64,000 bases of DNA from Owenia fusiformis (lineage: Eukaryota; Annelida; Polychaeta; Sabellida; Oweniidae). Under the pieces are notes generated by a model. The model was not told the origin of the DNA. It saw nothing but the letters and a program-made list of their open reading frames with translations, and ran no database searches. Made by a program: the position numbers and the translations under genes. Shown piece by piece: positions 1,796-47,800 of the stretch; position 1 is the stretch's first letter, and each line of letters opens with the position of its first letter. The stretch is from positions 33,430,572-33,494,571 of the forward strand of contig CAIIXF020000012.1 in assembly GCA_903813345.2 (NCBI GenBank). Direction: 5' to 3'.

Positions 1796-2580
1796 CAAGG
1801 CATAAAGATGCAAAATGTCACCATCTGCCATTTGTTACAGACGTCGAACGCCGATAGCCGGACGCCGTCACAAAAATATTTGAGTCTATAACAATAGGTC
1901 AGCACTTGTGGTGGTGACTGAGTCTACAGGGCGTCAAATAAGTCTGTTCTCCCCCCTTAACTTTTTTAATTCAAAGATAACACAGGGCTGGTATATAATC
2001 TTAAATGGAATTTAACTTGCTGATCACACACCAAATTTCAGAGTGATTGGTTAAATTCCAAATTTTTTAGAGTATTTTTAGTGATGTCCATATTTCACTT
2101 TTTTAATAGTCTGTATGTCTCCCCAAGCAGCCCGGAGGGCCTCAATTCTACGAGGATATGATCCTGTATAAATCATCCAGAACGTTTAATTTTAGGTGTT
2201 ATCAACTATTTTGTGATTAAAGATGCCCCTGCTTCAAAGGCTCCCCTGAATGTAACAAATTTTACTCCGTAATGATATTGAGAAACATCGAAATCACCCA
2301 ATGTTGGCATTGTCACTGCATTATCAACTTTTCACTTTTCTTTCACTATACCTGGTAATTTTTCTTGTTTTGACGTAATCAAAGGTCAAAAAACATTGTA
2401 GCAATTTTATTTGGAGGAGTTTATGATTGATTTTTTGAGGGTGATCAGCATTTTCCATAAGCTTCAAAATGATATATGGGAAAGTATGATACATTTAAAG
2501 ATAAAAAGTTAAGGGTGAGAACAGACTTATTTGACACCCTGTATAACAATATGTCATCACTTGTGGTGGTGACTGAGTCT
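1796..2580. repeat. Dispersed repeat (ACATGC...GTCACCA family) seeding the 38-bp array
   Basis: 1796-1925 contains ATGCAAAATGTCACCATCTG, then gccATTTGTTACAGACG and ATAACAATAGGTCAGCACTT. The same order of motifs recurs at 36618-36795, 56395-56570 and twice at 62830-63080, so it is a dispersed family. Its tail is the unit that becomes tandem from about 2540. A 615-bp TA-flanked MITE interrupts it. Confidence 0.7.
1927..2541. mobile_element. TA-flanked MITE inserted in the first 38-bp unit
   Basis: Termini CAGGGCGTCAAATAAG and CTTATTTGACACCCTG are inverted and extend through GTCTGTTCTC and TTAAC. The element is flanked by TA on both sides. Removing it plus one TA restores GAGTCTATAACAATATG, exactly the sequence of neighbouring array units. 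TA duplication fits the Tc1/mariner group. No ORF, so non-autonomous. Confidence 0.85.
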
Positions 2581-4705
2581 ATAACAATATGCCATCACTT
2601 GTGGTGGTGACTGAGTCTATAACAATATGTCATTACTTGTGGTGGTGACTGAGTATATAACAATATGTCATTACTTGTGGTGGTGACTGAGTCTATAACA
2701 ATATGTCATTACTTGTGGTGGTGACTGAGTATATAACAATATGTCATCACTTGTGGTGGTGACTGAGTGTATAACAATATGCCATCACTTGTGGTGGTGA
2801 CTGAGTCTATAACAATATGTCATTACTTGTGGTGGTGACTGAGTCTATAAGAATATGTCACCACTAGTGGTGGTGACTGAGTATATAACAATATGTCATC
2901 ACTTGTGGTGGTGACTGAGTCTATAACAATATGTCATCACTTGTGGTGGTGACTGAGTATATAACAATATGTCATTACATGTGGTGGTGACTGAGTCTTT
3001 ACCAATATGTCATCACTTGTGGTGGTGACTGAGTCTATAACAATATGTCATCACTTGTGGTGGTGACTGAGTCTATAACAATATGTCATCACTTGTGGTG
3101 GTGGCTGAGTCTATAACAATATGTCATCACTTGTGGTGGTGACTGAGTCTATAACAATATGTCATCACTTGTGGTGGTGACTGAGTCTATAAGAATATGT
3201 CATCACTTGTGGTGGTGACTGAGTCTATAACAATATGTCATCACTTGTGGTAGTGACTGAGTCTATAACAATATGTCATCACTTGTGGTGGTGACTGAGT
3301 CTATAACAATATGTCATCACATGTGGTGGTGACGGAGTCTATAAGAATATGTCATCACTTGTGGTGGTGACTGAGTCTATAACAATATGTCATCACTTGT
3401 GGTGGTGACTGAGTCTATAACAATATGTCATCACTTGTGGTGGTGACTGAGTCTATAACAATATGTCATCACTTGTGGTGGTGACTGAGTCTATAACAAT
3501 ATGTCATCACTTGTGGTGGTGACTGAGTCTATAACAATATGTCATCACTTGTGGTGGTGACTGAGTCTATAACAATATGTCATCACTTGTGGTGGTGACT
3601 GAGTCTATAACAATATGTCATCACTTGTGGTGGTGACTGAGTCTATAACAATATGTCATCACTTGTGGTAGTGACTGAGTCTATAACAATATGTCATCAC
3701 TTGTGGTGGTGACTGAATCTATAACAATATGTCATCACTTGTGGTGGTGACTGAGTCTATAACAATATGTCATCACTTGTGGTGTTGACTGAGTCTATAA
3801 CAATATGTCATCACTTGTGGTGGTGACTGAGTCTATAACAATATGTCACCAATAGTGGTGGTGACTGAGTCTATAACAATATGTCATTACTTGTGGTGGT
3901 GACTGAGTCTATAACAATATGTCATCACTTGTGGTGGTGACTGAGTCTATAACAATATGTCATCACTTGTGGTGGTGACTGAGTCTATAACAATATGTCA
4001 TCACTTGTGGTGGTGACTGAGTCTATAACAATATGTAATCACTTCTGGTGGTGACTGAGTCTATAACAATATGTCATCACTTGTGGTGGTGACTGAGTCT
4101 ATAACAATATGTCATCACTTGTGGTGGTGACTGAGTCTATAACAATATGTCATCACTTGTGGTGGTGACTGAGTCTATAACAATATGTCATCACTTTTGG
4201 TGGTGACTGAGTCTATAACAATATGTCATCACTTGTGGTGGTGACTGAGTCTATAACAATATGTCATCACTTGTGGTGGTGACTGAGTCTATAACAATAT
4301 GTCATCACTTGTGGTGGTGACTGAGTCTATAACAATATGTCATCACTTGTGGTGGTGACTGAGTCTATAACAATATGTCATCACTTGTGGTGGTGACTGA
4401 GTCTATAACAATATGTCATCACTTGTGGTGGTGACTGAGTCTATAACAATATGTCATCACTTGTGGTGGTGACTTAGTCTATAACAACATGTCATCACTT
4501 GTGGTGGTGACTGAGTCTATAACAATATGTCATCACTTGTGGTGGAGACTGAGTCTATAACAATATGTAATCACTTGTGGTGGTGACTGAGTCTATAACA
4601 ATATGTCATCACTTGTGGTGGTGAATGAGTCTATAACAATATGTCATCACTCGTGGTGGTGAATGAGTCTATAACAATATGTCATCACTTGTGGTGGTGA
4701 CACAA
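2542..4705. repeat. 38-bp minisatellite, about 57 units
   Basis: Unit is GTCTATAACAATATGTCATC followed by ACTTGTGGTGGTGACTGA, highly homogeneous with point variants. Each unit has a near-palindrome (GTCAtCACTtGTGGTGgTGAC; the variant near 2860 is closer still), so single strands could form serial hairpins. Confidence 0.95.
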
Positions 4706-14630: not shown

Positions 14631-14893
14631 TCAAACTTTGGTATCTCTTACTTTTTTCTGTGGGAAGACAAACTCATCCTCGGAAGATTCATCGTGATAT
14701 TCGCGTACATTTGAACGCAACAATTTTTTCTTATCTTGATTATTTGAGTATCCATAGAACTCTTCGTCAGAGTCCCCGTCTGTGGACTCTAATTTATGGA
14801 AGCCATTGATTGGTTTATAAGTTGCCGCCTGGCCCTTAGATTTTATCGCAATCACTAATGTCAAAAGTAGCAGCATTACTAGCAGGAAGGAAC
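14631..14893 (-). CDS. CPD: CPD exon 25: TM helix end and cytoplasmic tail with stop
   Basis: 263 nt, residues 1617-1703 and [23 protein letters not shown] completes the membrane helix. The tail carries FHKL and two acidic serine clusters ([16 protein letters not shown]). Such F-x-x-L and acidic/CK2-type elements are reported as trafficking signals of the vertebrate CPD tail (from memory), so a TGN-cycling role is inferred. An AT-rich 50-bp array lies just upstream of the acceptor. Confidence 0.92.
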
Positions 14894-17800
14894 CTGAAAA
14901 TTTCAATATTATGTATTTTCAATATTATGTATTTTCAATATTATAATGTTTTCAATATTATGTATTTTCCGGTTAATATGTATTTTCAATATTTTGTATG
15001 TTTAATATTCTGTATTTTCCGGTTAATATGTATTTTCAATATTTTGTATGTTTAATATTCTGTATTTTCCGGTTAATATGTATTTTCAATATTTTGTATG
15101 TTTAATATTCTGTATTTTCCGGTTAATATGTATTTTCAATATTTTGTATGTTTAATATTCTGTATTTTCCGGTTAATATGTATTTTCAATATTTTGTATG
15201 TTTAATATTCTGTATTTTCCGGTTAATATGTATTTTCAATATTTTGTATGTTTAATATTCTGTATTTTCCGGTTTATGTATTTTGAATATTTTGTATGTT
15301 TAATATTCTGTATTTTCAAGATTATGTATTTTTTAATATATTATGTTCATGTGTTTCCAATATCATGTATTTTCAAGATTATGTATTTTCAAGATTATGC
15401 ATTTCCAATATTATGCATTTTCAATACATGTATTTTCAAGTATGTATTTTCAACATTATGTATTTTCAATATTATGTATTTTCTTGGAACAGCATGTTGT
15501 TTAAAAATGGAACAAATATGTGTAACTTAAAAAAGAACAGCTGACATACAAAGTTTACATAGTTCTCACCTAGCAGCATCATGAAGACAAGAGAAGAATA
15601 ACCAAATATTTTATCTTCTGGCCTAAGGAGGATATCTAAATGTGCAGCGTGCTGCTGGTTGGACACCTGGACAGTCTGAAATGTAAAATTAATGTTAAAT
15701 TCTGAATAATGAAATTCATATCTAAACCATAAAAATGAAGCAAAGGTGTGGCTGGGATCTCAAAATAGGTGAGGCAATGTTAATTAAATAGGTGAGGCAA
15801 TGTTGATTAAATAGGTGAGGCAATGTTGATTAAATAGGTGAGGCATATCTAAAATGGTGTGGCAATGTTAATTAAATAGGTGAGGCATATCTAAAATGGT
15901 GTGGCAATGTTAATTAAATAGGTGAACCATATCTAAAATGGTGTGGCAATGTTAATTAAATAGGTGAGGCAATGTTGATTAAATAGGTGAGGCACAATTA
16001 AATAGGTGAGGCACATTTAAATAGGTGAGGCAATGTTGATTTAATAGGTGAGGCACATTTAAATAGGTGAGGCAATGTTGATTAAATAGGTGAGGCACAT
16101 TGAAAGTGGTGAGGCAAAACTGAGATTAAAGATATATGAAGTGGCCAAAATGAAGCAAAGGTGTGGCTGGGATCTCAAAATAGGTGAGGCAATGTTAATT
16201 AAATAGGTGAGGCAATGTTGATTAAATAGGTGAGGCAATGTTGATTAAATAGGTGAGGCATATCTAAAATGGTGTGGCAATGTTAATTAAATAGGTGAGG
16301 CATATCTAAAATGGTGTGGCAATGTTAATTAAATAGGTGAACCATATCTAAAATGGTGTGGCAATGTTAATTAAATAGGTGAGGCAATGTTGATTAAATA
16401 GGTGAGGCACAATTAAATAGGTGAGGCACATTTAAATAGGTGAGGCAATGTTGATTTAATAGGTGAGGCACATTTAAATAGGTGAGGCAATGTTGATTAA
16501 ATAGGTGAGGCACATTGAAAGTGGTGAGGCAAAACTGAGATTAAAGATATATGAAGTGGCCAATAGAAACCTTCATAGTTTCAGTTGAGAAAAATGTCTT
16601 AATATTTGTTTTTCTGATTATATTTGGTGAGGCTATTGCCTCATCTGCCTTGCCTTGCCTGCCTCATGTATGGCTACAACCATGTGCAGTTTTTCCTTAA
16701 TTCAAATTGTATTTCATAAAACAAAACTTGATTCGACATGTTAGATGAGACTGAAAATTCTTACCTGGGTCTGAGAAATGTGCCCAGGTGCAGAGATTTC
16801 TACTTGGTATTCACCAGGAGGCAGCACCAACCAATATTCTCCCGCGTTTTTATGAATCAATACATGGTGATTATGACCTTTGACCTCCACTTTAGCATCT
16901 TCAAGGAGAGTGTGGAAACGACCTTGTAATTTGCCACGAATACCATTGTGGACCTATAAATTATAACAATATCCTTATTTAAAAAATTGAAAATTGCACA
17001 AAGTTCTCAATACTAACCACATTAAATGCAATGTGCCACATGACCAATCATGCCCCTTGGCAAATGGGGCTTATTTTTCGACATTTACAGTCACTATGTA
17101 TCAGATTAAGGTACCTGTCTGATAACAGCCATTAAAGACTGTTCGTGCTCATTCCACAGCATTGCCAATGCGCTCTCAGTGGGGGCGTGGCAGCATCCCA
17201 AGTTGACTGTCAGCTCTAGACACTTGTGTGCCATGTAGTTGTAGCCCTGCAAGTGAACCAACATATCTTAACAGTGTGCAAATAGTTGCAAGAGTCAGAT
17301 ACTAGCATGACTAAAAATTTTGATTAAATGTACCAAAAGTTGCCAGGAGATTGTTACAAGAAAATCTGCTACTTTGAGTAACATTCATATCATCTTACCT
17401 ACAATTCCCAAGCAGTATGTTGTAATCTTACCTACTTTTCCCAAGTATGTTGTAATTTTACCCACATTGCCCAAGTATGTTGTAATTTTACCTACATTTC
17501 CCAATCATGTTGTAATTTTACCTACATTTCCCAAGTATGTTGTAATCTTACCCACATTTTCCAAGTATGTTGTAATCTTACCTACATTTCCCAATTATGT
17601 TGTAATTTAACCTACATTTTCCATTTATGTTGTAAGTTTGCTTACATTTCCCAAGTATGTTGTAATTTAACCTACATTACCCAAGTATGTTGTAATCTTA
17701 CCTACATTTCCAAAGAATGTTGTAATCTTACCCACACAACCCAAGTATGTTGTAATCTAACTACATTTACCAAATATGTTGTAATTTTGCATACATTTCC

Positions 17801-20800
17801 CAAGTATGTTGTCATTTTACCCACATTTCCAAAGTATGTTGTAATCTTACCCACATTTCCCAAGTATGTTGTAATCTTACCTACATTTACCAAATATGTT
17901 GTTATTTTGCCTACATTTCACAACTATGTTGTCATTTTACCCACATTTCCCAAGTATGTTGTAATCTTACCTACATTTCTCAAGTATGTTGTAATCTTAC
18001 CCACATTTCCAAAGTATGTTGTAATCTTACCTACATTTCCAAAGTATGTTGTAATCTTACCCACATTTCCTAAGTATGTTGTAATCTTACCTTCATTTCC
18101 CAAGTATGTTGTAATCTTACCCACATTTCCCAAGTATGTTGTAATCTTACCTACATTTCCCAAGTATGTTGTAATTTTACCCACATTTCCCAAGTATGTT
18201 GTAATTTTACCCACATTTTCCAAGTATGTTGTAATCTTACCTACATTTCCTAAGTATGTTGTAATCTTACCTGCATTTTGCCACAATGCTGTTTCCCAGT
18301 TGTAGCATTACCAGCTGTCTCCACAGGTGACTGCACACCTAGACAAACATAGTCAATAAACTAATTACTACCTATTGCTAAAATGTAATAGAACTTGAGT
18401 AACAAGTCATGAACAACAGAACTATTTCAATAATAGAATTGTGCGAAATCAAAGTGGAAAATTTCTGCAAGATGTTTCTTTTTAGATCACTGTACGACTA
18501 GCTTGAAGTTCAATGTGCCCCTGTATCAGTTTGTGTACAAACTATTCTAATATGATGTGAGGCTGTTCAAGAAAAACAAAGACCAAACCTTTTTTCTATT
18601 AATGTATAATGAGTAGAATACTAGATTGGGACTAAGAGAAAGTTTTCATATTGGGAGGTCTTCAGATATGAAAGATATTCAGATATACAACTCAAGTTCT
18701 AGTATACCTTTACCTTTGCACTCCGCTGACACTTGGTGTGTTGAATGATAACTGGTGTATATGTTTGCAAACTGGCGGAATATATCATCATGCTGTGTTA
18801 CATTCATCTTGGTATTGTTCCCATTATCTAAAATTCAACACAATTTTATGAATGTACAAAAAAAATGATTGTATATTTCAAAATGTACAATATAGATGGA
18901 GGGGTACACATCGAGTTAACAAAATTATTTGCTCTTCAGAATATCACTCGGTCAAAATGATAAATCATGAATTGTAGGATGTTAGTCATATCATTTAAGT
19001 CTACATTTCCGTGGTCATTTGTAAATCCATTTTGAAAAAGTTGAGTTTTATGTATATCATTTTATGGTGTTGCTTAAAGGCCCCATGTAGAGTTTGAAAA
19101 TATGTTTTTATCACTCATTTACTATTTTTCAGGAATTTAAAAGTTATTTTAGTTTAATATGCTATAGTCTACAATCTACAAAACATATGAACTAAAAAAA
19201 TCAAGTTGACTTACTCTTCATCTCGCTACATGGATATCTGACTAATGGAGCGCCACTTTGTAAGGCAATAGACAGGGAGAAGGGAATATCAGCCATCCAT
19301 CTTGTTACGGCAGAAGTCTCTGGTTGAAGGTCTGTATGCTTCATACATTTACCTTATAACATAAATACAGTACATTCAATATAACCAATTAAGAATGACA
19401 TGGATTAGATATAAGCACCACTTTGTAAGGCAATAGACAGGGAGAAGGGAATATCAGCCATCCATCTTGTTACAGCAGAAGTCTCTGGCTGAAGGTCTGT
19501 ATGTTTCATACATTTACCTTATAACATAAATACACTACATTCAATATAACCAATTAAGAATGACATGGATTAGATATAAGCGCCACTTTGTAAGGCAATA
19601 GACAGGGAGAAGGGAATATCAGCCATCCATCTTGTTACGGCAGAAGTCTCTGGCTGAAGGTCTGTATGTTTCATACATTTACCTTATAACATAAATACAC
19701 TACATTCAATATAACCAATTAAGAATGACATGGATTAGATATAAGCGCCACTTTGTAAGGCAATAGACAATGAAAAGGGAATATCAGCCATCCATCTTGT
19801 TACGGCAGAAGTCTCTGGCTGAAGTTCTGTAGGCTTCATACATTTACCTTATAACATAAATACAGTACATTCAATATAACCAATTAAGAATGAAATGGAA
19901 TAGATATAAGCACCACTTTGTAAGGCAATAGACAGGGAGAAGGGAATATCAGCCATCCATCTTGTTACGGCAGAAGTCTCTGGCTGAAGTTCTGTATGTT
20001 TCATACATTTACCTTATAACATAAATACAGTACATTCAATATAACCAATTAAGAATGACATGGAATAGATATAAGCACCACTTTGTAAGGCAATTGACAG
20101 GGAGAAGGGAATATCAGCCATCCATCTTGTTACGGCAGAAGTCTCTGGCTGAAGGTCTGTATGTTTCATACATTTACCTTATAACATAAATACAGTACAT
20201 TCAATATAACCAATTAAGAATGACATGGAATAGATATAAGCACCACTTTGTAAGGCAATTGACAGGGAGAAGGGAATATCAGCCATCCATCTTGTTACGG
20301 CAGAAGTCTCTGGCTGAAGGTCTGTATGTTTCATACATTTACCTTATAACATAAATACACTACATTCAATATAACCAATTAAGAATAACATGGAATAGAT
20401 ATAAATGCCACTTTGTAAGGCAATAGATAGAGAGAAAGGGATATCATTCATCCATCTTGTCATGGCAGAAGTCTCTGGCTGAAGGTCTGTATGCTTCACA
20501 CATTTACCTTATAACATAAATACATTACATTCAATATAACCAATTAAGAATAACATGGAATAGATATAAATGCCACTTTGTAAGGCAATAGATAGAGAGA
20601 AAGGGATATCATTCATCCATCTTGTCATGGCAGAAGTCTCTGGTTGAAGGTCTGTATGTTTCATACATTTACCTTATAACATAAATACATTACATTCAAT
20701 ATAACCAATTAAGAATGACATGGATTAGATATAAGCACCACTTTGTAAGGCAATTGACAGGGAGAAGGGAATATCAGCCATCCATCTTGTTACAGCAGAA

Positions 20801-23800
20801 GTCTCTGGTTGAAGGTCTGTATGTTTCACACATTTACCTTATAACATAAATACAGTACATTCAATATAACCAATTAAGAATGACATGGAATAGATATAAG
20901 CGCCACTTTGTAAGGCAATAGACAGGGAGAAGGGAATATCAGCCATCCATCTTGTTACGGCAGAAGTCTCTGGTTGAAGGTCTGTATGTTTCACACATTT
21001 ACCTTATAACATAAATACATTACATTAATTATAACCAATTAAGAATAACATGGAATAGATATAAATGCCACTTTGTAAGGCAATAGATAGAGAGAAAGGG
21101 ATATCAGCCATCCATCTTGTTACGGCAGAAGTCTCTGGCTGAAGGTCTGTATGCTTCACACATTTACCTTATAACATAAATACATTACATTCATTATAAC
21201 CAATTAAGAATGACATGGATTAGATATAAGCACCACTTTGTAAGGCAATTGAGAGGGAGAACGGAATATCAGCCATCCATCTTGTTACGGCAGAAGTCTC
21301 TGGCTGAATGTCTGTATGTTTCATACATTTACCTTATAACATAAATACACTACATTCAATATAACCAATTAAGAATGACATGGATTAGATATAAGCACCA
21401 ATTTGTAAGGCAATTGACAGAGAGAAGGGAATATCAGCCATCCATCTTGTTACAGCAGAAGTCTCTGGCTGAAGGTCTGTATGTTTCATACATTTACCTT
21501 ATAACATAAATACACTACATTCATTATAACCAATTAAGAATGACATGGAATAGATATAAGCACCAATTTGTAAGGCAATAGACAGGGAGAAGGGAATATC
21601 AGCCATCCATCTTGTTACAGCAGAAGTCTCTGGCTGAAGGTCTGTATGTTTCATACATTTACCTTATAACATAAATACACTACATTCAATATAACCAATT
21701 AAGAATGACATGGATTAGATATAAGCGCCACTTTGTAAGGCAATAGACAATGAAAAGGGAATATCAGCCATCCATCTTGTTACGGCAGAAGTCTCTGGCT
21801 GAAGGTCTGTATGTTTCATACATTTACCTTATAACATAAATACAGTACATTCAATATAACCAATTAAGAATGACATGGAATAGATATAAGCACCACTTTG
21901 TAAGGCAATTGACAGGGAGAAGGGAATATCAGCCATCCATCTTGTTACGGCAGAAGTCTCTGGCTGAAGGTCTGTATGTTTCATACATTTACCTTATAAC
22001 ATAAATACAGTACATTCAATATAACCAATTAAGAATGACATGGAATAGATATAAGCACCACTTTGTAAGGCAATAGACAGGGAGAAGGGGATATCAGCCA
22101 TCCATCTTGTTACGGCAGAAGTCTCTGACTGAAGGTCTGTATCAGCAGCTTCATATATTTACCTTATAACATAAATACAGTACATTCAATATAACCAATT
22201 AAGAATGACATGGATTAGATATAAGCGCGACTTTGTAAGGCAATAGACAGGGAGAAGGGAATATCAGCCATCCATCTTGTTACGGCAGAAGTCTCTGGCT
22301 GAAGGTCTGTAGGCTTCATACATTTACCTTATAACATAAATACAGTACATTCAATATAACCAATTAAGAATAACATGGATTAGATATAAGCACCACTTTG
22401 TAAGGCAATAGACAGGGAGAAGGGGATATCAGCCATCCATCTTGTTACGGCAGAAGTCTCTGGCTGAAGGTCTGTATGCTTCACACATTTACCTTATAAC
22501 ATAAATACACTACATTCAATATAACCAATTAAGAATGACATGGATTAGATATAAGCACCACTTTGTAAGGCAATAGACAGGGAGAAGGGGATATCAGCCA
22601 TCCATCTTGTTACGGCAGAAGTCTCTGGCTGAAGGTCTGTATGTTTCATACATTTACCTTATAACATAAATACAGTACATTAATTATAACCAATTAAGAA
22701 TGACATGGATTAGATATAAGCACCACTTTGTAAGGCAATAGAGAGGGAGAAGGGAATATCAGCCATCCATCTTGTTACGGCAGAAGTCTCTGGTTGAAGG
22801 TCTGTATGCTTCATGCATTTACCTTATAACATAAATACAGTACATTCAATATAACCAATTAGGAATGACATGGATTAGATATAAGCACCACTTTGTAAGG
22901 CAATAGACAATGAAAAGGGAATATCAGCCATCCATCTTGTTACGGCAGAAGTCTCTGGTTGAAGGTCTGTATGCTTGACACATTTACCTTATAACATAAA
23001 TACAGTACATTCAATATATAACCAATTAAGAATGACATGGAATAGATATAAGCGCCACTTTGTAAGGCAATAGACAATGAAAAGGGAATATCAGCCATCC
23101 ATCTTGTTACGGCAGAAGTCTCTGGTTGAAGGTCTGTATGCTTGACACATTTACCTTATAACATAAATACATTACATTCAATATATAACCAATTAAGAAT
23201 GACATGGATTAGATATAAGCACCACTTTGTAAGGCAATAGACAGGGAGAATGGAATATCAGCCATCCATCTTGTTACAGCAGAAGTCTCTGGTTGAAGGT
23301 CTGTATGTTTCATACATTTACCTTATAACATAAATACAGTACATTCAATATAACCAATTAAGAATGACATGGATTAGATATAAGCGCCACTTTGTAAGGC
23401 AATAGACAGAGAGAAGGGAATATCAGCCATCCATCTTGTCATGGCAGAAGTCTCTGGCTGAAGGTCTGTATGTTTCATACATTTACCTTATAACATAAAT
23501 ACACTACATTCAATATAACCAATTAAGAATGACATGGATTAGATATAAGCGCCACTTTGTAAGGCAATAGACAGAGAGAAGGGAATATCAGCCATCCATC
23601 TTGTTACGGCAGAAGTTTCTGGTTGAAGGTCTGTATGCATCACACATTTACCTTATAACATAAATACAATACATTCAATATAACCAATTAGGAATGACAT
23701 GGATTAGATATAAGCACCACTTTGTAAGGCAATAGACAATGAAAAGGGAATATCAGCCATCCATCTTGTTACGGCAGAAGTCTCTGGTTGAAGGTCTGTA

Positions 23801-26800
23801 TGTTTCATACATTTACCTTATAACATAAATACAGTACATTCAATATAACCAATTAAGAATGACATGGATTAGATATAAGCGCCACTTTGTAAGGCAATAG
23901 ACAGAGAGAAGGGAATATCAGCCATCCATCTTGTTACGGCAGAAGTTTCTGGTTGAAGGTCTGTATGCATCACACATTTACCTTATAACATAAATACAAT
24001 ACATTCAATATAACCAATTAGGAATGACATGGATTAGATATAAGCACCACTTTGTAAGGCAATAGACAATGAAAAGGGAATATCAGCCATCCATCTTGTT
24101 ACGGCAGAAGTCTCTGGCTGAAGTTCTGTATGTTTCATACATTTACCTTATAACATAAATACACTACATTCAATATAACCAATTAAGAATAACATGGAAT
24201 AGATATAAGCACCAATTTGTAAGGCAATAGACAGGGAGAAGGGAATATCAGCCATCCATCTTGTTAAGGCAGAAGTCTCTGGTTGAAGGTCTGTATGTTT
24301 CATACATTTACCTTATAACATAAATACAGTACATTCAATATATAACCAATTAAGAATGACATGGAATAGATATAAGCGCCACTTTGTAAGGCAATAGACA
24401 GAGAGAAGGGAATATCAGCCATCCATCTTGTTACGGCAGAAGTCTCTGGCTGAAGGTCTGTAGGCTTCATACATTTACCTTATAACATAAATACATAACA
24501 TTCAATATAACCAATTAAGAATGACATGGATTAGATATAATCCCCATTTTGTAAGGCAATAGACAATGAAAAGGGAATATCAGCCATCCATCTTGTTACA
24601 GCAGAAGTCTCTGGCTGAAGTTCTGTATGTTTCATACATTTACCTTATAACATAAATACAATACATTCAATATAACCAATTAGGAATGACATGGATTAGA
24701 TATAAGCACCACTTTGTAAGGCAATAGACAATGAAAAGGGAATATCAGCCATCCATCTTGTTACGGCAGAAGTCTCTGGCTGAAGTTCTGTATGTTTCAT
24801 ACATTTACCTTATAACATAAATACAATACATTCAATATAACCAATTAAGAATGACATGGATTAGATATAAGCACCACTTTGTAAGGCAATAGACAGAGAG
24901 AAGGGAATATCAGCCATCCATCTTGTTACGGCAGAAGTCTCTGGCTGAAGTTCTGTATGTTTCATACATTTACCTTATAACATAAATACAATACATTCAA
25001 TATAACCAATTAAGAATGACATGGATTAGATATAAGCACCACTTTGTAAGGCAATAGACAGGGAGAAGGGAATATCAGCCATCCATCTTGTTACGGCAGA
25101 AGTCTCTGGCTGAAGGTCTGTATGTTTCATACATTTACCTTATAACATAAATACAATACATTCAATATAACCAATTAAGAATGACATGGAATAGATATAA
25201 GCACCACTTTGTAAGGCAATAGACAGGGAGAAGGGAATATCAGCCATCCATCTTGTTACAGCAGAAGTCTCTGGCTGAAGTTCTGTATGTTTCATACATT
25301 TACCTTATAACATAAATACACTACATTCAATATAACCAATTAGGAATGACATGGATTAGATATAAGCACCACTTTGTAAGGCAATAGACAGGGAGAAGGG
25401 AATATCAGCCATCCATCTTGTTACGGCAGAAGTCTCTGGCTGAAGTTCTGTATGTTTCATACATTTACCTTATAACATAAATACACTACATTCAATATAA
25501 CCAATTAAGAATAACATGGAATAGATATAAGCACCAATTTGTAAGGCAATAGACAGGGAGAAGGGAATATCAGCCATCCATCTTGTTACAGCAGAAGTCT
25601 CTGGCTGAAGTTCTGTATGTTTCATACATTTACCTTATAACATAAATACAATACATTCAATATAACCAATTAGGAATGACATGGATTAGATATAAGCACC
25701 ACTTTGTAAGGCAATAGACAATGAAAAGGGAATATCAGCCATCCATCTTGTTACGGCAGAAGTCTCTGGCTGAAGTTCTGTATGTTTCATACATTTACCT
25801 TATAACATAAATACACTACATTCAATATAACCAATTAAGAATGACATGGAATAGATATAAGCACCACTTTGTAAGGCAATAGACAGGGAGAAAGGAATAT
25901 CAGCCATCCATCTTGTTAAGGCAGAAGTCTCTGGTTGAAGGTCTGTATGTTTCATACATTTACCTTATAACATAAATACAATACATTCAATATAACCAAT
26001 TAAGAATGACATGGAATAGATATAAGCGCCACTTTGTAAGGCAATAGACAGGGAGAAGGGAATATCAGCCATCCATCTTGTTACGGCAGAAGTCTCTGGC
26101 TGAAGTTCTGTATGTTTCATACATTTACCTTATAACATAAATACACTACATTCAATATAACCAATTAAGAATGACATGGATTAGATATAAGCGCCACTTT
26201 GTAAGGCAATAGACAGGGAGAAGGGAATATCAGCCATCCATCTTGTTACGGCAGAAGTCTCTGGCTGAAGGTCTGTATGTTTCATACATTTACCTTATAA
26301 CATAAATACAATACATTCAATATAACCAATTAAGAATGACATGGAATAGATATAAGCACCACTTTGTAAGGCAATAGACAGGGAGAAAGGAATATCAGCC
26401 ATCCATCTTGTTACGGCAGAAGTCTCTGGCTGAAGGTCTGTATGTTTCATACATTTACCTTATAACATAAATACAATACATTCAATATAACCAATTAAGA
26501 ATGACATGGAATAGATATAAGCACCACTTTGTAAGGCAATAGACAGGGAGAAGGGAATATCAGCCATCCATCTTGTTACAGCAGAAGTCTCTGGCTGAAG
26601 TTCTGTATGTTTCATACATTTACCTTATAACATAAATACAATACATTCAATATAACCAATTAAGAATGACATGGATTAGATATAAGCACCACTTTGTAAG
26701 GCAATAGACAGGGAGAAAGGAATATCAGCCATCCATCTTGTTACAGTAGAAGTCTCTGGCTGAAGTTCTGTATGTTTCATACATTTACCTTATAACATAA

Positions 26801-29800
26801 ATACAGTACATTCAATATGACCAATTAAGAATGACATGGAATAGATATAAGCGCCACTTTGTAAGGCAATAGACAGGGAGAAGGGAATATCAGCCATCCA
26901 TCTTGTTACGGCAGAAGTCTCTGGCTGAAGGTCTGTATGTTTCATACATTTACCTTATAACATAAATACAATACATTCAATATAACCAATTAAGAATGAC
27001 ATGGAATAGATATAAGCACCACTTTGTAAGGCAATAGACAGGGAGAAAGGAATATCAGCCATCCATCTTGTTACAGCAGAAGTCTCTGGTTGAAGGTCTG
27101 TATGTTTCATACATTTACCTTATAACATAAATACAATACATTCAATATAACCAATTAAGAATGACATGGAATAGATATAAGCACCACTTTGTAAGGCAAT
27201 AGACAATGAAAAGGGAATATCAGCCATCCATCTTGTTACAGCAGAAGTCTCTGGCTGAAGTTCTGTATGTTTCATACATTTACCTTATAACATAAATACA
27301 ATACATTCAATATAACCAATTAGGAATGACATGGATTAGATATAAGCACCACTTTGTAAGGCAATAGACAATGAAAAGGGAATATCAGCCATCCATCTTG
27401 TTACGGCAGAAGTCTCTGGCTGAAGTTCTGTATGTTTCATACATTTACCTTATAACATAAATACAGTACATTCAATATAACCAATTAAGAATGACATGGA
27501 ATAGATATAAGCACCACTTTGTAAGGCAATAGACAGAGAGAAGGGAATATCAGCCATCCATCTTGTTAAGGCAGAAGTCTCTGGTTGAAGGTCTGTATGT
27601 TTCATACATTTACCTTATAACATAAATACACTACATTCAATATAACCAATTAAGAATGACATGGATTAGATATAAGCGCCACTTTGTAAGGCAATAGACA
27701 GGGAGAAGGGAATATCAGCCATCCATCTTGTTACGGCAGAAGTCTCTGGTTGAAGGTCTGTATGCATCACACATTTACCTTATAACATAAATACAGTACA
27801 TTCAATATATAACCAATTAGGAAAATTACATCCAATGCTCAGCTCTTCTAAGGAACAACTGGATTAGATATAAGCACTTAAGGCACAAAAGATAATCATG
27901 GATAAAAGGTCAAGGTCAAAATAAGCAGCTTGATATCCATCTACGAGGCCGTAGGTTTCTTTCATGTTATCAATTTATTTCTAATATAAACAACAATTTG
28001 TTTTACAACAATTCATAGGTTGTTCATAAAATAAATTGGCAAATCACAAAATCTGCTATATTTTCAGTTCTTTTTTTGTTATATGTTCATATTTCATATT
28101 TCTACCATTTCTATATTTACTAAATAGGCACTTACATGGAAAATCTGAATCCAAGTCAACCTCATTCTTGTTAGCTTTACCCTCCAGACTTTCACATTGG
28201 CCTTTTATGCCTTTTGCCAAACCATCAGGGTTAAGAGTGGGCAATATGTGGATCCTGGTACGATCAATTAGCTAAAATAGAAATAACAGAAATTCCTTGG
28301 TGAAATATCCAAAATATGTTAAAATTACTCAGTAAAACAATGAATGTTTTAACCTGAATTTACAAAAATAATATATTATTTTAACCATGAAATGCTTGAA
28401 AATGTACTAATTATAAATAAAAAGCTCATAGAAAGGTGCAACATCTTCAATAATTTTCTATGAGCTTAATATTTGTGATTATTATGCACCTCATTAAAAT
28501 ACTCAAATCTGATTGGTTAAGAGCTGCATGGTCTATTGCCATACGTGGCACCAAGATCTCGTTCTTCGCCTCGCCTAGTTTTTTTTTTGAGGATAGGTAT
28601 TCTGGCATACCCACCTCATGGTCATCCAGTATTTGTTTAGTACTCTGCACACACATGTAGTCTAAAACTTAATATTTATTTACATACATTTAAGACATCT
28701 ACAAAAACTGCACAGAATTTTTGTATTATTTTCACAAGTTTACCTCAGTGATTAAGGAATCTTTTCTATAGTTATCCACAAGATGGCGTGCCAGTTGCAA
28801 CATTAACTCAGGACCTGCCATCTCGTTACCATGGATACCAGCAACAAACTTAACCTCAGGGACATCGACACGGTGGTTGCCAGGTGATTTAGCAATCTCT
28901 AGTACCCAGAGTTTGTTCTTTTCCACTGATTCCCCGATACTGAAATGCAACAAGAATTCAATAAGTAAAGAAATACACCATGAATCAAGAAGACAATTTT
29001 TCAAAATTAATTTATATGTTAAAATAGAATAGAATAAAGAATAGAATATAGCATAGAATACTCAAAAAATTAAAAGTATATTCATCAGAAACAAACAATC
29101 ATTCATATCAATGCCAAAAAGGGCTTTAACTTCAAATTGTCCATTCAGAAAAAAAACTGAATTGTCAGCACTCAATTAATCAATGCATAGCTATATTTGT
29201 AACAAATTCAAACATAGTTTTTCTTATTCAAATTCATTATTCGCTGTTAATAATTGGTGTGGTTCAGGACCCTTAGTTCTGCCACTTGCCCTAATCAAAA
29301 GTGTTCGCATAAGCAGGTGTTCACATTTCAAGCTCTTTAAACACATCAGTGTCCATGGAAAAAGTATTGAGAGATGTTTGGATAAACAGGTTTCACTGTA
29401 TTTAGATTCTTCTGGTATATTTGAGCAATCACCTGTAAAGTCTTGTTATATCCTTGTGGTTTGTTGAGATGTTCTTGAGCTGGTACTCCATAGCAATGTT
29501 ACTATGGTACTCCATCTTGCTAACTGCTTTTTCTAAGACAAAGTCAACATCTACAGCCTCATATGGAATGACTGTGAATGCTTTCGTCATTTCCTCATAA
29601 CCTGTAAAAAACACAAATGTTTTTAAAATCTGTAATTTCCATTGTTTTTATTTTGACAGGTGACGGGATTCGTAACTAACGACTGATTGATTTCAATGAG
29701 TTTTCCCTCTTGGTAATGGACTTTGAAAAACTGGTTGCCTATTTCTATATAGCTGTAGGTCGAATGTCTTTATTTGTACATTTTAAGCTGTGTATTGATA

Positions 29801-35800: not shown

Positions 35801-38800
35801 GTACTTCACTCCATGCTTGGCTGACAGAGAGATGCAGAAAAAGTGCAATGTTTACCATGCAAACATTAACTATACAATGTATACTCATGAACTTAATGTA
35901 TTATTTTTCACTCTGGTCCAATAGACGATCTTACCTGAACCATGTATACCACAAGTTGGTATATAAAGCACTTAAGATGAGAAAATAGTAGTATGAGAAG
36001 AGGTCCTTTTCCCATAATGCATTAATTTAGCAGACGATCTTACCTGAACCATGTATACCAGGAGAGGGTACTTGTTGGCCAACCAATAGCTCTCAAGGTC
36101 AGCAGCAAATGGATACTTGGTACACCCAAGCTCTATTGTGATTTCAAAACAGTTGGTGTTTATGTAATTCCAATCTTGCATGCCTCCTAATATGGTAAAA
36201 CAGGAATCATTCAGTGCGGTGGTTGTATGACAATAGAGTACATAACGGAGCATATTATACAACAGTACAACAAGGGTAGTGCAGGGTTCAAACACATGTT
36301 TCATAATCTTGCAAAATACAACATAGTACAGTATGTGTATAAGGGCTTAACATGCAGAGTATATGTATATTCGAAACAAGCTGACTGGCACTTAATATTT
36401 AAGATACATACAGAAGTTTGAAGCAGTTATGGAGATATAACTTAAATCACTTAAAGGCATGGATGAACTTGATGTCAACTGTGAAATGCTCCGAATTTGA
36501 TATGTCGATTGAGTACCGCGAAACCTGCCTAATCTGAATGCAAGTGGAGTCTGAGCCAAAAGTGTTCAGATTGGCAGGTGTTCACATGTTCAGCCTGGAT
36601 GTCTGTAGTCAATTATAAACAAGGCATTAACATGCAAAATATCACCACCTGCTATTTGTTATAGATGCCAAATGCCAAACACCAACCACTAAATGCCAAA
36701 GACCAACTGATGGACACTAAAGGCTGAACGCCAAGTGCCGCCCTCCAAAAAGTTTGAGACAGTAACAATATGTCACTACTTCTGATGGTGACATAAAAAT
36801 GATGCAGAAAAAAGCATTCACATCGAGATATGTTCAGATTAGAGATGCATTCTGATAGGATATTCCAGTTGAACAGTAATCGGAATTGCAAGCAAATTGG
36901 GTCATGGTTTAGGTTATCATGGAGGTCTGGCTTGGGATCCAAAGGGCTTTGGGGCCATTCCAAGTAATAGTATGGTTTTAATTACCATGATGAAGGATTA
37001 TCGATTTTATTGTTACCTGCCACACTGTACCATTGGGCCCCGTTGGTGATGCCATCTTGGAAATATTCCCCAGAGCTTGTCCCACATGGGTGGCCACTAT
37101 GCATGGTTGAATGGGCCTGAAACGTAACAAAATTCAGAATTTTTTTTACACATAATAGGATTTAATTTGTACTGATGCCCTTTCAAGGCCAGGCGTACAT
37201 CCAACAATTACAATCTTCAATTACAGTAAATTAAGTAAAGGATTTTTACTTTTTCCATATACAGATAAATATTTAATGTCTATTGAAAGTACAATCAATT
37301 CCCTTATATCAACTAGATAATGGCAACTCCGCGGAGTAGCAAATCCCAACGAACAAAATATCAATTACCAAATTCAAATCAATTATACTCATTACTTTAG
37401 TTAAAATTGAAAAAATTAGATTTTAGAATTGCGAATTCCTGCAAAGCAGCCATTTTGAATTTTCTGAGGTACAAATCTGAAAAATAATACCATAATTGTG
37501 ATCTACTCCAAAATTCCTTCAATTTGAGTATAATATAGCCATACTTTGAAGCGATCGAAAAATTATTGCGAAATCGTACATTAGACGGCCATTTTGAATT
37601 TTACGAGGCTCGAATCAGAAAAAAGATACAATATTTGCAATCTACTCTTAATTGCTTTTCATTTGAGTATAATAAAGCTATACTTCAGAAAGATCTAAAA
37701 ATTAGCGAAAATTTCTGTTTTTCTGACCCCCCATACACAGCCCCTGGGGGTCAGGATGAAAAACACAGAATATATGTGAAATAGATAAATGTTGTGAATA
37801 TACTGCCAAAATTTCAAACAATAATATTAATTACTTTGGTTTAGAATGAAAAATTTATGATTTTTGCGAAAAAGTCCCGTCATTTCTAAACCGGCGGCCA
37901 TCTTGAAGAAATTTTTTTGCGTAAAACTATTTACCAATATACATCTTTCCACCAAATATGAAGAAAATCCGTGCACTAGTATTTGAGTTATCTTCCAGAC
38001 GAACGGACTGACTGACAGACGGATGGAGGGCTTCACTATATCCCTACCAAACTTCGTTCGTTGGGATAATAAACTCACCAATGAATAGGACTCCGCTAAC
38101 CATCTAAATGCCTTATCATCTGGGCATTTACTATATATGCTATGTCCAAGTCTGATGTCATCATCCCAGGGGTAATTGGCCACAAGGGAGCCCCCGTGGA
38201 GATTGGCGGACAGGACAAATGGATATTCTTTGATCCACTTCATCACAGCTTTTGTCTCTGGCTCCTGCTTTGCATTCTTGGTAGTTGTGTGGAACTGGTC
38301 GGGAAAGTTGCGGTTTAGATCAACATTGTGAGCGTTTGAACGTCCATTCACTCCCATGGCATCCCCTTGCAAAATATATGTAACTTTTGCAATTTTCATG
38401 GATAATACTATTATAACAGGTTAGCCTTAAGTATCCATGCAACAAGTGGTATTTTTGTTGACAAAAAATAAATAAAGTTGATAAATATAAATGAATTAAA
38501 TAACCTTACAGCTAAATACTCATTTTGCTGAAATATTTTTTCAAAATATTTTTACACAACCACTGACTATGCGTCATAGTTTGGATTTCCATGGACTTTA
38601 TGCACCATAGGACTTTATCCACCGTAGTGTGGATTTCCATTAACTATATCCACCATAGTGTGGATTTCCATTAACTATATCCACCATAATGTGGATATCC
38701 CTTAACTATATCCACCATAGTGTGGACTTCCCATAGTGTGGATTTCCATTAACTATGCACCATAGTGTGGATTTCCATTAACTATATCCACCATAGTGTG

Positions 38801-41800
38801 GATTTCCATTAACTATATCCACCATAGTGTGGATTTACATTAACTATATCCACCATAGTGTGGATTTACATTAACTATATCCACCATAGTGTGGATTTAC
38901 ATTAACTATATCCACCATAGTGTGGATTTCCATTAACTATATCCACCATTGTGTGGATTTCCAATAACTATATCCACCATAGTGTGGATTTCCATTAACT
39001 ATATCCACCATAGTGTGGATTTCCATTAACTATATCCACCATAGTGTGGATTTCCATTAACTATATCCACCATAGTGTGGATTTCCATTAAATATATCCA
39101 CCATAATGTGGATTTCTGTTAACTATATCCACCATAGTGTGGATTTCCATTAACTATATCCACCATTGTGTGGATTTCCATTAACTATATCCACCATAGT
39201 GTGGATTTCCATTAATAATATCCACCATTGTGTGGATTTCCATTTACTATATCCACCATAGTGTGAATTTCCATTAACTATATCCACCACAGTGTGGATT
39301 TCTATTAACTATATCCACCATAGTGTGGATTTCCATTAACTATATCCACCATAGTGTGGATTTCCATAAACTATATCCACCATAGTGTGGATTTCCATTA
39401 ACTATATCCACCATTGTGTGGATTTCCATTAACTATATCCACCATAGTGTGGATTTCCATTAACTATATCCACCATAGTGTGGATTTCCATTAACTAATC
39501 CACCATTGTGTGGATTTTCATTAACTATATCCACCATAGTGTGGATTTCCATTAACTATATCAACCATAGTGTGGATTTCCATTAACTATATCCACCATA
39601 GTGTGGATTTCCATTAAATATATCCACCATAGTGTGGATTTCCATTAACTTTATCCACCATAGTGTGGATTTCCATTAACTATATCCACCATAGTGTGGA
39701 TTATTAATAACTATATCCACCATAGTGTGGATTTCCATTAACTATATCCACCATAGTGTGGATTTCCTTTAACTATATCCACCATAGTGTGGATTTCCAT
39801 TAACTATATCCACCATAGTGTGGATTTTCATTAACTATATTCACCATAGTGTGGATTTCCATTAACTATGCACCAAGTACACATTCCTCTACTCACCTTC
39901 ATGTGATGCTTCATGGCCATCAGGATTCATGGTTGGCATGATGTGTATACGTGTCATGTTAACTGCTAGGGACACAAGCTCATTGTGGGCGTAGTTCTCA
40001 CATAGGAATTGAATATACAACAACAGCATCTCTCTGCCTACAACCTCATTACCATGCATGTTGCCAATGTACTTGAACTCCGGCTCACCTAAAGAATAAA
40101 ACAAGCATGTTGCCAATGTACTTGAACTCTGGCTCACCTAAAAACAAGGATGATCCATATAATTGAACCATGGTTCAGAAAAAGAATATAACAAGGATTT
40201 TCCTTTGTATTTTCTTTGAAAAGTAAATATCAAATGTTCTAACAAGAATTAAATCAAATGAGTAACTTAGGTTTATTTTGATTTGCACCACCAATGTTCA
40301 TTGGACTAACAGTTGATTCCAAAAACATTTACTAACATATTTATTTTTCTTGATGTTGAAAACAAAAAAATGAAAATATTTGAAATTCCTACCAGGTTCA
40401 TGCCTGCCAGGATTGTCTGATATCTCAAGGGTCCATAAATCACGATTTTTTACCGATCTTCCAACAGAATACAGCCGAGTGATTCCTGGGTATTTATTGG
40501 CGATGATTTGCATGAACTCAGTCATCTCTTGGTGGTTGTGGTGCTTGAACTGAGTGGGTTCTATAAATTTAGCATTGTCTCTATGTTCACTATCAGAAAG
40601 TTTATTAACATGTTCAACAAGAGAATGCAGTGTTGCTGGGTAGTCAAGGGTAACTGCTGATGATGCACGTGTTGTCATGGTTGCTGCTGTTGGTGTTGTT
40701 TTGGTTGGTTTATCTGTTGCAATTCTGTTGTTGTTATCGTCAGATGCCGCTGTTTGTTTGAGTGTTACGTTAAGAATGGTGGCTGGCCCATCAGTGACAA
40801 CTACGCCATCTATTGTGTATTTCTGGTATCTACAATGTATATTTATATGTTTGAATCTTTCAATTATTCGTCAAATAAACAAAGTCTGCCCCTAGTTATC
40901 AAATAATTTGAGTGGGGGATTAAACATTGACAATTCTGGCCAAAAACATTGTTGTCTGCTGAGTATTAAATTGGGATTTATGATTTCAACAAAAACGCAT
41001 ATGTACATGTCGGTACATGTATAGATGGTAAAGGTTACAAGTATATTGATAACCAAGATGGCGCATACCCAGAATTCATAAAAGGACCTATACCCATATA
41101 AAAACGAATCTCTAAATCCCCCTTTTATAGACAATAAAGATCAAAAGTGTGAGCATTTCAATTACAGGCTACATAAAAAATGGATGTATTTACCCATGCT
41201 GCACTACGGTTATGTTATAGGTCCCAGGCAGTAGAAGTCGCCAGTAATAACCAGAGTCTGTTGATTCAACTAAATGTGCAATTGGATGCTTGTTGGAGTC
41301 AGTTACAAGGATTGAAGCTCCTTTAATAGGGTCCTTGGTGTCTTCATCTGTGATACGTCCTTTGATACCTCTGTGAACCTGTAGTGGAAAGAGTGATGTC
41401 AACGGATTGGGTTAGATCCGATATAAACAAGGTACCGACATGACAAAAATGTTGCCAGTTGGTAATTAATTGCAAAAGCGTATCAGTTGTTACAATCACC
41501 AAGCATTACAAAAACAGAGAACAAAATCTAACGTTACATCAAAATATGATATGAGTAAATCTGAAATAATTTGTTGGTAAATGAGTCAAGAATGGAAAGT
41601 GCAGAATTGCAAAATCATAACTCAGATCACAAGAACAAAATAATAAAAATAATTCCATAATTCTTAGGACATATAACTGATTAAAGTCTGATATCAAACA
41701 TGCCGAAAAAGTGCTTTAAGCATAGACCTGTTACATGTATGCCCTTCCTAAGACCTTTCCCTTCCCAAGGCCACTTCCCTTCTCAAAGCCTTTCCCTTCC

Positions 41801-44800: not shown

Positions 44801-47800
44801 TTGAACCAAAAATTGAATTAAATTTTTGGCGGTCTCATAAAACCGGCAGCATATTCATTTATTGACATCCCATACAAGGGGGGGGGGTCAGAGTTGTTAT
44901 GTAGTTACTCGGCATCCGCCACGATCAGAACCATGTAAGGAATAGTAAGGGGGAGCCCATGATACCAAGTAATATCAAATAATTATAGGAGCTTCTAACT
45001 TCTTCCGCATCCCCACCCTTGGTATACGCAGCTGACAAAATGGATCGGTACGGGTCAAAAGCTGGACCTGTACGGGTTAACGGTTTTATTTGAATTTAAA
45101 ACAGCTATAACTTGCTCAATATTGACTTCTTCGTATCTAAGTTGAAATATATGATCCCTCCGAATGATTTTAAGTACCCCCAAAGTTCACCCGTACAGGT
45201 CCAGCTTTTGACCCATACCGGTCCATTTCGTCAGCTGCGTATACCAAGGGTGGTCCAACATACTTTGTTTTTACAGACTCAGAAATCAATGTTCGCTATA
45301 AATGTAGCAATATAATATGAGCTTTCGTGTACTCAGATCCTCCATTTGTAAAAAACAATTGAAGAACAGCATAATAGAAAGTCAAATACAAAATTGATTT
45401 GCGCCCAAAATAGTTTGGGTAATGATTCCCGTCACTACCATGCATTTGTCCCCAAAGCAAGGTATTCTGATGGGTAAAATCTTGATACCTCCCCCTCCCC
45501 TACTAAAAATGATTTGAATTTGGTTTAAAAATATATACCCCAAGAACACTTTAAGGTATCATAAATTATTGAGGTAGTTATTAGTTAGAAAACACCGTGC
45601 CCTTATAGTATTTATTACAATTCTAGAACAATTTCATGAAACGACTCATAAGGAAATTGTTTTTGTAACTGTTTGTACATTTCATATGTTTTTGAATCAC
45701 CTTGTAACAAAATCAATATTGTGTCTAGCTTGCAGAATTGTTTAAAATGAATATAAATATGTTAGACTCGCGCACCCATCCTTCGTAAAATTCGATTTAC
45801 TCGCGCACACGTCATTTTGCGAGACACAAAAGTGCGAATTTCTCTTTAACCGGGACACGCTTGGATGAGATATTTGGTGAATTAGATCGTCTTCAGACAT
45901 TGATGGTACGGGACAAGTTTCACAGAGATACAAAATCTTAAAACATGTAAAAAGTGTGATTACAAACCTCAAGCGAAAGAAAATGCGAATCACTCGCGCA
46001 CACGTCATCCATGAAGTCACGTGACAGACTATACCCAGGGTGATAGAACAAATACCTAAAGTTACATTTTGATAAACAGCAATATTATTGTGACTGCCAT
46101 CTTACTGGTTGCTATAGTGATGGCTAAACGACCAAACATTGTGGCAAGAATTTTCATGGGTAAAATTTAATTACAAGAGGCTAAAGGTTTACTATACTAG
46201 TACCAGTGGCCTGCCACGCATTAAAGCAAGTGGGCGTAGCACCCACCTGAGATTTGAAAAAACAGGCTTGCACCCATCTGAGAATTCATTCGCACCAACT
46301 TGAAAATGAGAAAATCATGAAAAATGGGCATATTTTGACCAATTTTGGTCTTAATTCTGAAAATCAGATTTTTGCACCTACTTGAGAAAAAATCCTAGGG
46401 AGAACACTGAGTACACATAAAACAATTCTGAAATAACAAAGTTTTTTTTCTATAAAATATTAATGTATTTTTCCAAATAATATTATACTGTGATCCTTTA
46501 TTGCTTGTTTTTAAAGTTTTCTTTAACGAAGATAAGATTTCAAATGTTTCAAGCAAACACTGAATGAACATAAAAGTCTAGAATAAACAATATTACTGAG
46601 GTAAAATCTTTCGACTGGCAATAAATCATTTTTTTGATACCTAACATAATACTATAAGCTGCTTAACTCAAAAACCTACACTGATCTTTTAACCTTTTCT
46701 TTCAAAAGCATCAGTGAAACTACAAAACTCAGTTAAAGTGAAGTATCACATTTCATGTTTAGTTTATAACTGAAGAAGTATTTTATGTTTTGCTTGTCAT
46801 GTATACTGTTAATATGACAGTAAATGCGTCCTCTGTAACACTGACTGAAGTTTTTAAATAAATTGTTTGTAATATACCGTGTACAATATTTAAGTAAAAA
46901 ATGTTTAGTCTGAACACTATTGGGACTGCCTTAAAGTGTTCATACAGACAAGTGTTCATACAGAAAAGTGTTCATACAGAAAAGTGTTCATACAGACAAG
47001 TGTTCATACAGACAAGAGTTCATACAGACAAGAGTTCATACAGACAAGAGTTCATACAGACAAGTGTTCATACAAACAAGTGTTCATACAGACAAGAGTT
47101 CATACAGACAAGAGTTCATACAGACAAGAGTTCATACAGACAAGTGTTCATACAGACAAGTGTTCATACAGACAAGAGTTCATACAGACAAGACTTCATA
47201 CAGACAAGTGTTCATACAGACAAGAGTTCATACAGACAAGAGTTCATACAGACAAGTGTTCATACAGACAAGTGTTCATACAGACAAGTGTTCATACAGA
47301 CAAGTGTTCATACAGACAAGTGTTCATATAGACAAGTGTTCATACAGACAAGAGTTCATACAGACAAGACTTCATACAGACAAGAGTTCATACAGACAAG
47401 AGTTCATACAGACAAGAGTTCATACAGACAAGTGTTCATACAGACAAGACTTCATACAGACAAGTGTTCATACAGACAAGAGTTCATACAGACAAGAGTT
47501 CATACAGACAAGTGTTCATACAGACAAGTGTTCATACAGACAAGTGTTCATACAGACAAGTGTTCATACAGACAAGTGTTCATATAGACAAGTGTTCATA
47601 CAGACAAGTGTTCATACAGACAAGTGTTCATACAGACAAGTGTTCATACAGACAAGTGTTCATACAGACAAGTGTTCATACAGACAAGTATTCATACAGA
47701 CAAGTGTTCATACAGACAAGTGTTCATACAGACAAGTGTTCATACAGACAAGTGTTCATACAGACAAGTGTTCATACAGACAAGTGTTCACTTGTTGAAG

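Follow-up and report, generated by a model that had tools for sequence, protein, structure and literature searches.

The window (the whole stretch of Owenia fusiformis DNA analysed, 64,000 nucleotides) carries the CPD gene on the minus strand and a DHX37 locus on the plus strand. The CPD gene model comprises 25 exons encoding 1703 amino acids, has its coding end at 14631 and is open to the stop codon. The intron between exons 18 and 19 is occupied by a long tandem array. The features concerned are as follows (a slash marks a splice boundary):

28136-28271, minus strand: CPD exon 18, the last before the array, with donor CCAT/GTAAGT; from the gene model, boundaries matched by the public protein P0001
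19249-27823, minus strand: tandem array of 52 units of about 165 bp, with 51 partial upstream copies followed by the front part of the real exon 19
19215-19352, minus strand: real CPD exon 19, 138 nt, phase 1-1; its last 33 nt and donor AAGA/GTAAGT are found in the real exon alone
18714-18827, minus strand: CPD exon 20, the first after the real exon 19, from the gene model
14631-14893, minus strand: last CPD coding exon, with the membrane anchor and cytoplasmic tail, which would be lost on use of a copy

Tandem Repeats Finder placed the array at 19249-27823 (minus strand) with a period of 165, 51.9 copies and a 95% match. Read on the minus strand, a unit consists of about 60 nt of intron, the acceptor TTATAAG/GTAAAT and about 105 nt of CPD exon 19. 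This splice core was intact in 52 of 52 aligned units, as expected from the first-pass annotation, which had described about 51 truncated copies of the exon with intact acceptors. All 52 units span an exon-intron boundary, with intron end, acceptor and exon start, and the intact exon 19 (19352-19215) stands at the array edge, the copies lying between it and exon 18. At least 52 matches of exon 19 were listed in the Owenia fusiformis genome (498 Mb), all inside the array and corresponding to the real exon and its 51 partial copies. A dispersed repeat or satellite as the source of the unit is unsupported by these listed matches.

Joining exon 18 to an array copy keeps the reading frame in the gene model, so the correct phase claimed for the copies was confirmed. 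The exon part is open in 50 of the 51 upstream copies; the remaining one (c35) keeps its acceptor and is frameshifted. A TAA shortly after LQSGA had been predicted for every copy. Among the 50 upstream copies whose anchor is exact, this holds for 28, where the stop comes directly after ...GAYI or a variant of GAYI, and fails for the other 22, which stop only after 10-34 further codons. The further prediction that use of a copy removes the rest of domain 4, the membrane anchor and the tail agrees with the intact downstream gene model. Skipping of exon 19 (138 nt, phase 1-1) would preserve the frame.

Alignment of the units showed 50 variable columns out of 165. A run of 23 columns, spanning positions -17 to +6 around the splice site, was invariant across the 52 units (permutation P 0.006), although by another count 6% of windows of equal length were as conserved. 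The exon part carried 19 synonymous and 19 non-synonymous variants, against an expected synonymous share of 0.22-0.27 (P 0.00015-0.0025). Variants present in at least five copies were synonymous rather than non-synonymous by 11 to 2 and rarer ones by 8 to 17 (Fisher P 0.005, with the cut at five copies chosen after the list was seen); these variant tests assume independence and are weakened by the shared ancestry of the units. The pattern appears to fit exchange with the functional exon, and selection on single copies fits it less well. The outermost unit was the most divergent from the consensus (identity 0.885), compared with a mean of 0.967 and with 0.977 for the real-exon unit. Just outside the array, the intron at 27860-27885 (minus strand) repeats the intron side of the unit, followed at the joint by a stretch that resembles exon 19. 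This suggests that the segment is a likely trace of the seed duplication, formed at short homology.

Long tandem arrays in PacBio assemblies can be mis-sized, and the copy number, or even the whole array, could in principle be an assembly product. We consider this very improbable, given that 49 of the 52 units have distinct sequences and that the published read N50 of 25.75-30.75 kb exceeds the 8.6-kb array, if the N50 given in PMC9977687 refers to the same assembly.

Splice matrices were derived from 44 donors and 45 acceptors, all of them real sites in CPD, DHX37 or the flank, with the exon 18/19 sites excluded. The real exon-19 acceptor scored 2.82 and fell at the 2nd percentile. Decoy acceptors scored higher in 34 of 51 cases (3.55-4.62) and equal in 17. 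As a donor, AAG/GTAAAT scored 10.2, the 70th percentile of the 44 real donors; it recurs with every unit, and the donor-like site of each unit overlaps the next acceptor. Each unit may for this reason act as a possible 165-nt pseudo-exon. The suggestion that the copies are silenced for want of a donor is contradicted by the presence of this site in every unit. With decoy acceptors equal or better and good donors beside them, splice scores alone do not explain the choice of the real exon 19.

The exon start at AG/GTAAAT is also the most donor-like of all, ranking first of 46 acceptors, only 5 of which have exon starts reaching the lowest decile of donors. It combines an acceptor with a donor-like motif, as in recursive splicing. 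Moreover, the junction of exon 18 with a copy rebuilds a donor, CAT/GTAAAT, which scored 5.95 (11th percentile) and so exceeded the donor of exon 19 itself (4.79). The array could thus be imagined as a 51-step ratchet, in which exon 18 would join a copy at the AG/GTAAAT acceptor, the donor would be rebuilt and the intron would be removed stepwise to the real exon 19; early exit would give soluble CPD, and copy number would set its dose. The invariant 23 columns are consistent with such a scheme, but the 6% of equally conserved windows take away from them. The rebuilt donor is weaker than the next unit's own AAG/GTAAAT, and the real exon 19 would itself be at risk of the same removal. We regard the ratchet, including its proposed effect on dose, as quite improbable.

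A protein search with the CPD model showed 100% identity over 89% of the query to a public Owenia fusiformis CPD record of 1404 aa, P0001. Its exons 1-18 map exactly onto the model, whereas its last exon maps onto an array copy. The C-terminus (...LQSGAYI) lies inside this copy, and nine array copies encode the tail identically. When CPD exons 16-25 (502 aa) were searched against proteins of 276-878 aa, no Owenia record was among the best 120 of 147 proteins, and the top identity was 34%. The downstream CPD exons were absent from every Owenia protein among the matches listed.

P0001 ends exactly as the first-pass annotation had predicted for a truncated product, and that much of the prediction stands; the record could nevertheless come from misassigned exon 18-19 reads. 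The Owenia genome annotation was RNA-guided, and PMC9977687 reports that RNA-seq data back 31,678 of its 31,903 filtered transcripts, an annotation-wide figure that does not show reads over the exon 18-copy junction. P0001 is assumed to derive from that annotation. The array copies share a mean identity of 96% with the real exon-19 unit, and therefore true exon 18-19 reads can be misplaced onto copies. The truncation of P0001 may then be a read-mapping artefact.

If the record is instead taken at face value, the copies would serve as an alternative terminal exon for a used soluble CPD isoform that retains domains 1-3 plus some of domain 4 and lacks the anchor and tail. P0001 matches this product exactly and is assumed to come from the RNA-guided annotation of PMC9977687, and the 50 open upstream copies and the synonymous excess of the exon part point the same way. 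On the other hand, the possible misplacement of reads weakens the value of P0001, the rare variants in the copies are mostly non-synonymous, and the CPD tail remains conserved. The unit consensus contains none of the eight poly(A)-signal hexamers tested. We therefore think a used soluble isoform unlikely, although still credible.

The CPD exons downstream of the array, the membrane anchor and the tail are intact in the genome sequence. The cytoplasmic tail aligns with that of five animals (Lingula, amphioxus, Haliotis, Tubulanus and a caecilian); the Capitella and Aplysia rows showed no alignment at the tail. From the intact downstream exons and the aligning tail, we infer that full-length CPD is very probably still produced. 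The true exon 19 is presumably still spliced.

Two other observations were made in CPD. Domain 4 (exon 18, 28136-28271) reads DLDSDFP where domain 1 has DLNRDFP and domain 2 has DLNRNFP; to judge by this motif, domain 4 may be catalytically dead. In the intron between two late CPD exons, a 415-bp block occurs twice with a 100% match (15732-16563) and itself consists of 42-bp repeats (Tandem Repeats Finder); this doubling is a recent duplication.

Arrays across splice edges were also found elsewhere in CPD and in DHX37:

17392-18278, minus strand: second CPD splice-edge array, 30-bp unit, 29.5 copies, carrying the exon 21 donor, with 17 GGTAAG sites
52671-54843, plus strand: DHX37 donor-side array, 138-bp unit, 15.8 copies, of the exon ending at 52766
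55833-56169, plus strand: DHX37 acceptor-side array, 87-bp unit, 3.9 copies, of the exon starting at 56111
57046-57107, plus strand: DHX37 acceptor-side array, 20-bp unit, 3.1 copies, of the exon starting at 57099
57725-57847, plus strand: DHX37 donor-side array, 24-bp unit, 5.1 copies, of the exon ending at 57749
63334-63972, plus strand: DHX37 acceptor-side array, 93-bp unit, 6.9 copies, of the exon starting at 63910

For the enrichment, arrays inside the gene spans were picked by hand, with at least 3 copies and a score of at least 100 required and neighbouring calls merged; a 17-bp array at 47858-47907 (score 63) and the two-copy duplications were excluded. Of the 12 CPD and DHX37 arrays within the window, 7 cross a real splice site, against 1.74 expected (82 sites, P 0.0002). 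Without the exon-19 array, the figure was 6 of 11 against 1.09 (P 0.00014). Adding the 10-kb flank gave 8 of 14 against 1.83-2.03 (P 0.00005-0.0001), a less trustworthy figure than the window-only ones, as the flank exons were set by hand and differ from the DHX37-locus database protein P0241 in places. Two further arrays stop 5 and 12 nt from an acceptor. P0241, mapped as far as residue 935, uses only real exons at its five window arrays, whereas the CPD record P0001 ends within its array. Splice-edge arrays can evidently be passed over in a gene model.

A general constraint on splice motifs in these arrays was unsupported when mismatches per column were compared array by array. The motif was more variable than the rest in the 93-bp DHX37 array (mean 1.0 vs 0.48) and slightly less variable in the 138-bp (0.56 vs 0.88) and 87-bp arrays (0.08 vs 0.13). 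It was also less variable in a 123-bp array of the flank (0.08 vs 0.38). This flank array has 8 copies and lies at the acceptor of a late DHX37-like exon (L009, 8949-9932). The DHX37 3' exons of the same flank (L009, 7082-10000) differ from P0241 at several residues and may represent a second haplotype or a duplicated end of the gene. In CPD, two-copy duplications were seen at two splice edges, the exon 5 acceptor (40051-40150) and the exon 8 donor (35901-36080). Two long short-unit arrays, at 2542-4701 (38 bp, 56.8 copies) and 46934-47790 (16 bp, 53.6 copies), touch no CPD or DHX37 splice site.

A blind sample of helicases was drawn by a PF00270 search, in which 47 of 149 candidates were scored and at least 53 matches were listed; 20 loci with 31 of the 53 were examined. 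None of these 31 DEAD-domain exon matches elsewhere in the genome was overlapped by an array. In six of the helicase loci, the arrays were read by eye and none lay at a splice site, the nearest being about 25 nt past a donor (L036). Counted as 62 sites, the sample differed from the CPD and DHX37 sites (0/62 vs 8/92, Fisher P 0.02). An evenly spaced 200-kb sample of C12, the sequence on which the window occupies 33430572-33494571, held 15 arrays covering 3.4% of bases, compared with 15 arrays covering 25% in the window and its 10-kb flank. Four of the 15 C12 arrays were read in six frames, and one adjoins, without touching it, an exon that we take to be acyl-CoA-dehydrogenase-like. Splice-edge arrays as a genome-wide habit are unsupported by the 31 helicase matches, and their concentration may be local.

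We put at about two in three the probability that the CPD array is a tolerated minisatellite of the mirage type known from amphioxus, with leaky use of decoys possible. The 52 units keeping frame and acceptor, the confinement of the listed exon-19 matches to the array and the open 25-exon gene, whose tail aligns with that of five other animals, speak for this reading. So do the splice-site position of 6 of the 11 other arrays, the bypassing of arrays by P0241, the undisturbed splicing reported for amphioxus mirages, the shift from common variants (11 to 2 synonymous) to rare ones (8 to 17) and the resemblance at the seed joint. Counting against it are the end of P0001 in the array and the lack of downstream exons in any listed Owenia protein, together with the decoy acceptors (34 of 51 higher, 17 equal), the good donor in each unit and the helicase sample, which showed no splice-edge array.

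The seed of such a minisatellite would have been a tandem duplication whose breakpoints lay within exon 19 and within the intron upstream of it, probably at a short stretch of homology. The 165-bp unit would then have spread to 51 intronic copies by unequal exchange or slippage. The real exon would stay at the 3' edge of the array, since no copy has the final 33 coding nt or the exon-19 donor. Variants common in the array would have passed through the functional exon by exchange and so would be mostly synonymous. The functional mRNA would come from joining exon 18 with the real exon 19, with splicing mostly undisturbed; a fraction of transcripts may be spliced into a copy, yielding either a truncated CPD that lacks the anchor or an mRNA that is degraded.

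On this reading, the CPD array would place mirage-type exon-edge arrays in an annelid. Its copy number makes splice-site choice directly testable, with one true acceptor set against 51 near-identical ones of equal or better score in one transcript. Such an array can also cause a gene model in a reference proteome to be truncated, whether through misplaced reads or through genuine use of the copies.

The array can be compared with recursive or dual-specificity splice sites. It likewise has an AG followed directly by the donor-like GTAAAT, and exon 18 joined to a copy rebuilds a donor; it differs in having 51 tandem candidate sites in one intron. A model of intron gain by tandem duplication across AG/GT proto-splice sites is cited in PMC3087553. 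That model shares with the array a tandem duplication carrying splice signals, but the Owenia copies lie inside an existing intron, and no new one is seen.

The term 'mirage' was reportedly introduced by an earlier paper. PMC3087553 and PMC3902484 describe mirages as amphioxus tandem repeats across exon-intron boundaries in Adh3, troponin C and the globins BflGb6 and BflGb9, and similar repeats in lancelet PGBD5. The BflGb6 mirage has 6 and 3 units of 150-160 bp in two haplotypes. Mirages were reported there not to disturb splicing, RT-PCR having suggested normal splicing. The amphioxus mirages resemble the Owenia arrays in their boundary-spanning units in the intron beside an intact exon, many with intact AG/GT, in affecting both exon ends, and in a unit size close to that of BflGb6. 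Concerted evolution that leaves out the cluster edges, and length instability between haplotypes or tissues, are further traits of the mirage type; of the two edge units of the CPD array, the outer one is divergent and the real-exon one is not. No annelid mirage was found in the open-licence PMC literature. The Owenia array differs in its host, an annelid and not a cephalochordate, and in its 51 copies beside the real exon. It has a 23-nt invariant splice core and the AG/GTAAAT dual site, and the public CPD record ends within it, in contrast to the normal splicing suggested by RT-PCR in amphioxus. Judged by these structural features, the CPD array appears to be an annelid member of the mirage type, larger and with a dual splice site.
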